Shown here: positions 11,206 to 41,198 of the stretch, in pieces
How the letters are laid out: each line of letters begins with the position of its first letter
Position numbering within the stretch: position 1 is the stretch's first letter
From: Moorella thermoacetica
GTDB lineage: Bacteria; Bacillota; DSM-521; Neomoorellales; Neomoorellaceae
Direction of reading: 5' to 3'
Length of the DNA: 64,000 bases
NCBI RefSeq assembly: GCF_001267405.1
Contig: NZ_CP012369.1
Span: 1,266,001-1,330,000 of the forward strand
The notes under the pieces: model-generated
The model's input: the letters and a program-made list of their open reading frames with translations, nothing else
Told to the model about the DNA's origin: nothing
Database searches by the model: none
Program-made: the position numbers and the translations under genes

Positions 11206-11242
11206 AAAAGCAAAACGTCACCCCCGCCAGGAGTGACGTTTT
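11206..11242 (-). terminator. Terminator or attenuator hairpin between trpA and aroF
   Basis: Perfect 10-bp inverted repeat AAAACGTCAC / GTGACGTTTT (11233-11242 and 11212-11221) with an 11-nt loop. On the minus strand the tail is GCTTTT, directly followed by the aroF ribosome site. It can end the trp transcript, and if the promoter at 11326-11354 is used it would act as an attenuator for aroF. Confidence 0.65.
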
Positions 11243-11325
11243 TTGCTAAAGTCAATTCTCCTGCCGTCCTGCCGTCCTACCATTTTAGATAACCCTGCAG
11301 TGTTATCCTACTGTACTACATTTAG

Positions 11326-11354
11326 ACTATAGCATAGCTGCCCCCTCCTGGCAA
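11326..11354 (-). promoter_or_regulatory. Putative promoter for the aroF-pheA-tyrA-aroA-cmk unit
   Basis: Minus-strand TTGCCA (11354-11349) and TATAGT (11331-11326) spaced by 17 bases, just after the trpA stop. The transcript would begin near 11319 and include two tandem GGACGGCA copies and the hairpin at 11206-11242. Confidence 0.5.
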
Positions 11355-18001: not shown

Positions 18002-18035
18002 AAAATAAAAACCAGCGCTCAAAGATGAGCCCTGG
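18002..18035 (-). terminator. Leader terminator (attenuator) of the trp operon
   Basis: On the minus strand CCAGGGCTCA pairs with TGAGCGCTGG (18035-18026 with 18021-18012; nine pairs and one G-G mismatch) around a TCTT loop, followed by TTTTTATTTT. It stands 20-odd bases before the trpE ribosome site, so it can only act as a conditional terminator. Bases 18030-18026 can alternatively pair with 18061-18057 in the upstream (G/T)AG array, giving an antiterminator. Confidence 0.85.
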
Positions 18036-18047
18036 TAAAACTTTACC

Positions 18048-18102
18048 CTTAATCAAGCTCAACTCTAAGCTAAACTCCACTCTGCTCAACTCGCCTCAAC
18101 TG
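18048..18102 (-). promoter_or_regulatory. (G/T)AG triplet array in the trp leader, TRAP-like RNA-binding site
   Basis: Reading the minus strand, seven triplets start exactly five bases apart: GAG at 18097, 18092, 18087, 18082, 18077, then TAG at 18072 and 18067. A further GAG is at 18060 (with an overlapping GAG at 18065), and near-cognate CAG at 18102 and AAG at 18050 flank the array. Two-base spacers and (G/T)AG triplets are the known signature of a binding site for the trp RNA-binding attenuation protein (TRAP/MtrB). The last triplets overlap the predicted antiterminator strand. No leader peptide with Trp codons and no T-box motif is visible. Confidence 0.7.
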
Positions 18103-18120
18103 TATGCGATTGTTATTATA

Positions 18121-18150
18121 AGAATAACATGGATGGTAAATACCTGTCAA
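18121..18150 (-). promoter_or_regulatory. Putative trp operon promoter
   Basis: A perfect minus-strand TTGACA (18150-18145) lies just after the aroH stop. The best -10 at 18-base spacing is TATTCT (18126-18121); a perfect TATAAT sits at 18120-18115 but with too long a spacing. Transcription would begin just before the triplet array. Confidence 0.55.
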
Positions 18151-18155
18151 TACTT

Positions 18156-18566
18156 TTATTGCAGATCCGGGCGCAATTGACTCGCCCGGCCAAGGTAAAC
18201 ATGCACCGGTTGGTGATCACTGTAGGCATGGATTAACACCCGCACTATTCCCGGCTGGCTTCCCGGTACAGGTATCTCCCGGGCGCACATCAGGGCCACA
18301 TCCAACCAGCCCAGACGGCGGGCGGCTTCAGCCGGGAAGGCGGCATCAAGATCGGGGGTCACGGTGAAAATGGCGCTGATAATATCTCCTCTTTCCAGGT
18401 CGTTACGGATAACTATCTCCCGTAATAATTGTTCTGTTGCCGCAATAATTGCTGGGGCCGTATTCTCCTCGACGTCAACGGCCCCGCGCAGGCCCCTTAC
18501 TTTTTTCCCTCCGGGTCCTTTCTCCATGCCAGCCCCAGGCGCTTCCTGCCCCACCGGCTCAGTCAT
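18156..18566 (-). CDS. aroH: Chorismate mutase, AroH type
   Basis: Rearranges chorismate to prephenate, feeding PheA and TyrA. The 136-residue protein matches the trimeric Bacillus AroH fold: RGLRGAVDVEENT near residue 24, IFTVTPDLDAAFPAEAARRLGW near 66, and the C-terminal HVYLGRASQLRPDL. It has an extra 20-residue Gly/Pro-rich N terminus. The ATG has TAGGAGGGG upstream. The stop is only a few bases before the trp -35 box, so it may also be read through into the trp leader. Confidence 0.93.
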   Translation of the reverse strand: MTEPVGQEAPGAGMEKGPGGKKVRGLRGAVDVEENTAPAIIAATEQLLREIVIRNDLERGDIISAIFTVTPDLDAAFPAEAARRLGWLDVALMCAREIPVPGSQPGIVRVLIHAYSDHQPVHVYLGRASQLRPDLQ

Positions 18567-18617
18567 GCTACCCCTCCTACCATACTGCTCTGTTTACAGG
18601 CTCCGGCAGCCGCCCTT

Positions 18618-19028
18618 TTAGACAGCCCGGTGCCCCAGACCGATGCCGACTTCATCCAGGTGCAACAGGCCAATGCCGAAAAAGATGGCTACACTCAAAT
18701 GATCGTGCCAGCGGGCAATACCGATTTTCCCCCCCACATTCAGCCCGATGGCTTTGGGCATAATCTGGGAGAGGGCTTCCCGCGTCGCCCCGGCAATGGC
18801 TCCTTCTTCCTGGTGGGCCTCTTTAATGACTCCTTCCCTTTTGGCGGCCACTACTGCCCGTTCAATGATTTTCTGGACAGAATTAATAAATTCGCCCCCA
18901 TAATCCACGGCCGCCGTAGATATGCCGCCGGCTGCATATTCCTTTTTCAGCCGGGCCTCCTCCTCCCGGCTTTCCGAAAGGGCCATTTTAATGGCTACTG
19001 CCGCTACCTTTTTACTGCCGTACTCCAT
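18618..19028 (-). CDS. HutP-family RNA-binding regulator homologue
   Basis: A 136-residue protein with the HutP-family core: VVAAKREGVIKEAHQEEGAI around residue 65, AGATREALSQI, then NVGGKIGIARWHDHLSVAIF and a closing IGLGHRAV. Bacillus HutP is a hexamer that, with histidine and Mg2+, binds UAG-rich RNA and prevents termination in the hut operon. By my alignment the two metal-binding histidines of the ESHALYH segment are replaced here by glycines (EEGAIAG), while the C-terminal histidine is kept, so the ligand may differ. ATG at 19028 follows GGTGGAGG. It is 51 bases upstream of aroH-trp. Confidence 0.8.
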   Translation of the reverse strand: MEYGSKKVAAVAIKMALSESREEEARLKKEYAAGGISTAAVDYGGEFINSVQKIIERAVVAAKREGVIKEAHQEEGAIAGATREALSQIMPKAIGLNVGGKIGIARWHDHLSVAIFFGIGLLHLDEVGIGLGHRAV

Positions 19029-19194
19029 GATTGCCTCCACCCATTTATACTTGAATTGATTATATTACATCATGACCGGCATCGCAAGAAGATTTGCGGT
19101 CAAGCAAAGAAGCGCTTTTAAAAGAGCGGCCGCCTCCACATAATAATGTCAGGTAGTTTAACCCCCCAAAAACGTTTTCCTATCCAGGCTTACT

Positions 19195-19223: not shown

Positions 19224-19252
19224 TAACGGCAATGCATCGAGCAAATTTAAAA

Positions 19253-19416
19253 TGCCTAATCCCGGAAAAGCGGGAACGGGGGACCCACCAGAGGGGTGAA
19301 TCCCCGCCCTCAGTAAGCTTTATTACTTTGGGGTACCAAAGCTATTCAAAGTATGAAAACTGAGGGCGGGGTAGGGCTTTTCTCCGGCCCGAACCCGGCA
19401 GCTAACCCCGTCGGCA
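19253..19416 (+). ncRNA. c-di-AMP riboswitch (ydaO/yuaA class), copy 1
   Basis: Conserved ydaO blocks are present in order: GGGGGACCCACC, GGGGTGAATCC, GGGTAGGGCTTTT, CCGAACCCGGCAGCTAACC and a closing P1 strand (TGCC at 19253 pairs with GGCA at 19413). An internal peripheral helix lies at about 19300-19370. A strong terminator follows, so binding of c-di-AMP should switch the operon off. This class is known to control K+ transport and osmolyte genes. Confidence 0.93.
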
Positions 19417-19452
19417 GGAAAGGAGATGGTACCGTATGTCCAATAGGCAAAG

Positions 19453-41003: not shown

Positions 41004-41020
41004 ATTTATATATCCTGAAA

Positions 41021-41140
41021 CGCTGAATTGCGGTGTGCAGCCGTAAGCGGGGGACCCAATTTCCCGGGGTGAATCTTGCCGGTTATACCGGTGGGTAGGG
41101 CTAGACGTGGCCCGAATCCGTCAGCTAACTTCGTAAGCGT
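41021..41140 (+). ncRNA. c-di-AMP riboswitch (ydaO/yuaA class), copy 2
   Basis: P1 starts with CGCTGAAT and closes with CGTAAGCG. In between are GCGGGGGACCCAA, CGGGGTGAATC, GGGTAGGGCTAG, GGCCCGAATCCGTCAGC and TAACTTCGTAAGCG, almost letter-perfect to the class. It fills the 400-base divergent gap before otsAB together with the promoter and terminator. Ligand binding should stop transcription. Confidence 0.96.
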
Positions 41141-41198
41141 GAAGGGAATACCGCCGGTAAACGGTGTAGTTTTCCATTACGTTTATGGTTTATGCTGC

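Follow-up and report, generated by a model that had tools for sequence, protein, structure and literature searches.

The window analysed here, a 64,000-nucleotide stretch of DNA from Moorella thermoacetica, is part of one 2.53-Mb contig (G000) from a genome that is 99.9% complete. On its minus strand, which holds all of the features described below unless stated otherwise, a hutP-like gene (19028-18618) is followed by aroH (18566-18156), the trp leader, trpE-G-D-C-F-B-A (to 11372), a second leader, aroF (11192-10164), pheA, tyrA, aroA, and cmk, with the names pheA, tyrA, and aroA assigned from sequence. The aroH gene encodes a chorismate mutase (TIGR01796, 125 bits; PF07736) and aroF encodes an aroF-type DAHP synthase (NF006421, 518 bits; TIGR01361, 400 bits), the first enzyme of the shikimate pathway. 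The likely start codon of hutP is the ATG at 19028, with the mechanically called open reading frame opening four codons earlier. A sigma-A-like promoter (TTGCGA-17-TATAAT, 19059..19087) leaves hutP with a short 5′ untranslated region of about 25 nt, and in an alignment of the genus this promoter is the only conserved feature upstream of hutP in Moorella, with no conserved RNA. The trp operon has a sigma-A-like promoter of its own after aroH (TTGACA-18-TATTCT/TATAAT, 18115..18150), and hutP-aroH and trp are therefore separate units. Its leader carries a TRAP-type array in which eight (G/T)AG triplets are separated by 2-4 nt (18058..18097), homologous to arrays in relatives, and a computed intrinsic terminator (18002..18035). 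Two c-di-AMP riboswitches (RF00379) are found on the plus strand of the window, at 19243-19430 (89.7 bits) and 41011-41153 (84.1 bits); the first is divergent from hutP and precedes an amino-acid permease gene, a small ORF, a UspA-like ORF, and two TrkA-like ORFs, all named from sequence.

The hutP-like gene is the sole HutP gene of this genome and encodes a 136-residue protein of the aroH type. Its match to the Pfam profile PF09021 spans the full protein (E 1e-50, 171.7 bits against a cut-off of 25), and the closest named relative is HutP of M. thermoacetica DSM 21394, which is 99% identical. The AF2 model has a pLDDT of 95.6, and its top 10 Foldseek matches are all HutP (E 1e-9 to 3e-6), the best being B. 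subtilis HutP with TM 0.75-0.81. A search of the PDB with the single sequence gave no match; a profile search did reach the solved HutPs. In the resulting profile alignment, the metal-binding residues H73 and H77 of B. subtilis HutP correspond to G76 and G80, and the third metal ligand, H138, is also replaced, by L124. Each of the two glycines is present in 98% of 120 homologues and, judged from these sequences, the glycine form is the norm in the clostridial phylum rather than a local oddity. Some relatives have a second HutP paralogue in which all three metal histidines are kept (L046:8870-9304, minus strand, and L047:8645-9055, plus strand, in genomes G005 and G006), so that the glycine form constitutes a distinct subgroup. 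This second gene adjoins CoA-transferase-like and carboxylase-like genes, and no hut genes. Across the 399 genomes sampled, 257 have a HutP match, with a median identity to the window protein of 72%, compared with 50% for AroH and 49% for TrpE; HutP also ranks above AroF.

Within the class, every locus with an aroH-type hutP has aroH directly downstream of hutP or overlapping it, and across the phylum aroH neighbours hutP in about 90 of 121 loci. The genes that follow hutP-aroH differ, with trpE in only a subset of loci and aroF, tyrA, or aroA in others. Histidine utilisation genes are not found beside hutP, which is linked instead to aroH and to aro and trp genes. The gene lies within a conserved block, cmk-plsC-ispH-rpsA, and the age of this block may partly account for the linkage of hutP to aroH. 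In several genera ilvC is immediately 5′ of hutP (class loci such as L031, L039, and L044), and in Moorella the two are separated by other genes. These observations bear out much of the original prediction, which had described a HutP-family gene beside aroH, a trp operon downstream with a (G/T)AG array in its leader, and the replacement of two metal-binding histidines by glycines, and had asked for conserved linkage to aro or trp genes in relatives.

A candidate RNA target was first seen at the hutP-aroH junctions of many genomes as a recurrent YAG-NRYGG-YAG at the aroH ribosome-binding site. Its consensus is G-YAG-NAY-GG-YAG-NAY-GG-YAG-G, that is, UAG or CAG every eight bases with N5 spacing, where neither the A nor the leading G was prescribed by the search pattern. 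At hutP loci (1.8 Mb), the two-repeat form occurs 148 times in the sense orientation, compared with 20 times in antisense and 19 times in resampled sequence. The three-repeat form occurs 23 times in sense and not once in antisense or resampled sequence. A scan blind to gene position detected the three-repeat form in 87 of the 399 genomes, comprising 79 of 257 with HutP and 8 of 142 without (p 5e-10, a value that overstates the certainty, as the genomes are related), while a reversed-motif control gave 10 of 257 and 9 of 142 (p 0.33). Six of the eight exceptions without HutP look like chance, since they lie within genes, are repeat-like, or have no aromatic gene nearby, and the remaining two are AroF leaders in assemblies that are 80% and 87% complete. 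No exact three-repeat site is present in 178 of the 257 HutP genomes, many of which have two-repeat or degenerate forms. When DAHP synthase leaders were sampled independently of the motif, the element was found at 11 of 30 loci in genomes with HutP and 0 of 29 in genomes without (p 3e-4, which is optimistic for related genomes).

The genes downstream of the element belong largely to aromatic metabolism. Of 70 sites examined, 51 precede genes for aromatic biosynthesis, transport, or catabolism, or hutP: 32 AroF, 7 TrpX-type transporters, 4 TyrA, 3 AroH, 3 HutP, 1 tryptophanase/tyrosine phenol-lyase, and 1 phenylacetate-CoA ligase (PaaK). The sites at hutP lie in its own leader (L367, L368, L389); YAG repeats are found upstream of hutP in other genera, unlike in Moorella. 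At some loci without aroH, a TrpX-type ABC transporter is found beside hutP or close to it, with 2-3 perfect YAG repeats in its leader (L150, L155, L158, L161, L164). Of the other 19 sites, 2 precede SSF symporters and 3 precede DctP binding proteins, while 4 are unclear and 10 look like chance. We know of no aromatic substrate for these SSF and DctP transporters. The DctP-type solute-binding proteins (L309, L310, L359) are possibly importers of aromatic compounds, and the SSF symporter, a family that recurs at L360 and L393, may carry one.

An intrinsic terminator lies within 130 nt after the YAG repeats in 47 of 59 leader sites, and at these 47 sites the last repeat pairs with the 5′ arm of its own terminator at -12.6 kcal/mol, compared with -10.4 kcal/mol for swapped arms (0 of 2000 permutations). 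A second, upstream cluster with 0-1 mismatch is present at 35 of 60 sites, where 1.8 would be expected, mostly 17-45 nt away. At Rfam gathering thresholds, the YAG sites in 20 sampled loci were unmatched, and the Moorella aroF leader matched no covariance model up to E 5, on which ground a known riboswitch or T-box was rejected for this leader. The orphan cis-regulatory candidate TwoAYGGAY (RF01731) occurs at L386:152-309 on the minus strand, the same strand as the YAG site there and more than 1 kb from it. Rfam and the open-access literature yielded no earlier description of the element, and no open-access paper was found that connects HutP to Moorella, to chorismate mutase, or to aromatic regulation.

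In the Moorella genome the aroF leader has two YAG clusters. A putative promoter (TTGCCA...TATAGT, 11326..11354), identified in the sequence and conserved in the genus, is followed by a first YAG cluster, TAGTACAGTAG (11307..11317), which the motif scan found with one mismatch to the consensus, and by a second, TAGGACGGCAGGACGGCAG (11261..11279), which is the genome's sole exact three-repeat site. The minimum free energy fold of the truncated leader contains a predicted antiterminator (11225..11266), in which CGGCAGGAG, holding the third YAG repeat, pairs with CUCCUGGCG. The competing hairpin, AAAACGUCAC...GUGACGUUUU, is the computed intrinsic terminator (11212..11242), consisting of AAAACGUCACUCCUGGCGGGGGUGACGUUUU and then a U-rich tract. 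Upstream of aroH, a two-repeat site, CAGTATGGTAG (18577..18587), lies immediately before or overlapping the Shine-Dalgarno sequence (CAGTATGGTAGGAGGGGTAGCATG) and is kept at this position across the genus. Outside the aroF leader, the genome has two sites with one mismatch, located on the starts of aroE (L331, G000:C1:1497038) and of an SSF-family symporter gene (L332, G000:C1:2288389).

From these features we infer that HutP binds the YAG element and that it represses rather than activates. The Moorella protein is probably an RNA-binding feedback regulator with a HutP fold that acts on aromatic metabolism through this element in the manner of TRAP, terminating transcription or otherwise repressing its targets and leaving the trp array to TRAP. 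With an aromatic end product in ample supply, HutP would bind the YAG clusters, with their G-YAG-NAYG repeats spaced 8 nt apart. Phenylalanine and/or tyrosine would be the most likely ligand, because tryptophan is handled by TRAP. The antiterminator of the aroF leader would have the last repeat as one of its strands, and bound HutP would free the terminator. Since the repeats overlap the antiterminator, a protein bound there is expected to block its formation and cause termination, as in the logic of TRAP. Termination would then switch off DAHP synthase together with pheA-tyrA-aroA behind aroF. For aroH and aroE, the position of the repeats on the ribosome-binding site suggests that HutP binding would block translation instead.

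The sign of this regulation could be the reverse. B. subtilis HutP is an antiterminator of the hut operon and sets a family precedent for activation (PMC7430163), so that ligand-bound HutP might likewise melt the terminator and turn its genes on, and the tryptophanase- and PaaK-type targets would suit induction. However, the repeats are in the antiterminator strand, 5′ of the terminator, where a bound protein would be expected to promote termination, the majority of targets are biosynthetic and call for repression by their end product, and the aroH and aroE sites coincide with ribosome-binding sites. On these grounds an activating HutP is unlikely.

A real YAG element that regulates aromatic genes could also be read by a different RNA-binding protein, such as TRAP or a CsrA-like protein, with the hutP-aroH linkage being only an inherited gene order. 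The position of hutP in a conserved gene block, the presence of an exact site in just 31% of genomes with HutP, and the GGA that many repeat copies contain, as CsrA sites do, all speak for such a reader. GGA is not conserved, however, with the base after YAG being A, C, or T in about 29% of first and 67% of second repeats, and CsrA was rejected for this reason. TRAP was rejected because its spacing differs and because the element occurs in TRAP-free genomes, where the three-repeat form is present in 26 of 94 genomes with HutP and 5 of 106 without. The presence of HutP predicts the element, hutP's own leader has it, and NAG clusters are what B. subtilis HutP binds. We therefore think it quite improbable that the reader is a protein other than HutP.

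The very tight coupling of hutP and aroH, which often overlap or are less than 50 bp apart, could mean that HutP is a partner subunit of the chorismate mutase and no RNA regulator at all. This possibility is slight, as the neighbour is not aroH in about a quarter of loci, the fold is that of an RNA-binding hexamer, and the YAG element would be left unexplained.

That HutP reads the trp-leader array in place of TRAP, as the original prediction had proposed in case the genome lacked mtrB, has proximity and the NAG character of both motifs in its favour and is scarcely credible given the distribution of the array. A genuine mtrB, which the original prediction had itself named as a refutation, is present (PF02081, E 2.3e-40, G000:C1:1828767-1828967). 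Of the 22 genomes in the class, 20 have TRAP; the two without a match are fragmented assemblies (160 and 590 contigs), of which one is 58% complete. The geometry of the array is that of TRAP targets: many relatives have 8-12 (G/T)AG triplets directly before trpE, up to 12 and mostly with a 5-nt period. A TRAP-regulated trp leader is expected to carry, before trpE, about 11 (G/U)AG triplets with 2-3 nt spacers that overlap attenuator hairpins, and here mtrB, eight clear triplets, and a terminator are found. The predicted co-occurrence of HutP with arrays before trpE failed, with an array at 0 of 19 trpE-like loci in 16 genomes that have HutP and no TRAP, compared with about 12 of 20 genomes that have TRAP, a trpE match, and no HutP. 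Because the array follows TRAP and is absent from genomes with HutP but no TRAP, HutP is neither needed nor sufficient for it. The trp array is read by ordinary TRAP. What endures of the broader proposal, a HutP-type regulator outside histidine metabolism, are the changed ligand residues and the linkage to aroH, but not the trp array as the target.

Beyond Moorella, we consider it fairly likely that most HutPs of the clostridial phylum are not histidine regulators and form a second NAG-reading attenuation system: a HutP-fold sensor of an aromatic metabolite that, by means of a period-8 YAG element, governs the shikimate pathway (aroF, aroE, aroH, tyrA), the transport of aromatic compounds, and hutP itself, in the same cell as the unrelated TRAP with its similar RNA code. 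If true, this would give a function to a large, highly conserved, and functionally unassigned HutP clade, and entry into the aromatic pathway would have both a regulator and an RNA element in acetogens and sulphate reducers, among them Moorella and Desulfotomaculum relatives. It would also mean that TRAP and HutP, two unrelated folds, serve adjacent branches of a single pathway with similar triplet codes. The ligand switch in HutP would become directly testable.

The closest known system is B. subtilis HutP (PDB 1vea, 1wmq, 1wpv), a hexamer activated by L-histidine and Mg2+ that shares the Pfam family and fold of the Moorella protein. Its hut mRNA has two clusters of NAG-type triplets, and the candidate YAG target likewise has two clusters. 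The proteins are only about 20% identical, however, with H73, H77, and H138 replaced and shorter loops in the Moorella protein, and E55, T56, R98, and T99, RNA contacts of B. subtilis HutP, are seemingly not conserved. The genes at the YAG sites are aromatic rather than histidine genes, the triplets are GG-flanked and N5-spaced, where the spacing in B. subtilis is N4, and Moorella HutP is predicted to terminate, opposite in sign to antitermination. TRAP (MtrB) responds to an amino acid and binds NAG repeats that overlap an antiterminator, and the proposed HutP system would work alike. TRAP has an unrelated fold, though, and 11 repeats at period 5, compared with YAG clusters of 2-3 repeats at period 8, and the YAG targets belong to the common aromatic pathway rather than being trpE. 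T-box and other Rfam leaders likewise control aromatic biosynthesis and transport genes of Bacillota by attenuation, whereas neither the Moorella aroF leader nor, at gathering thresholds, the YAG sites of the 20 sampled loci matched an Rfam family.
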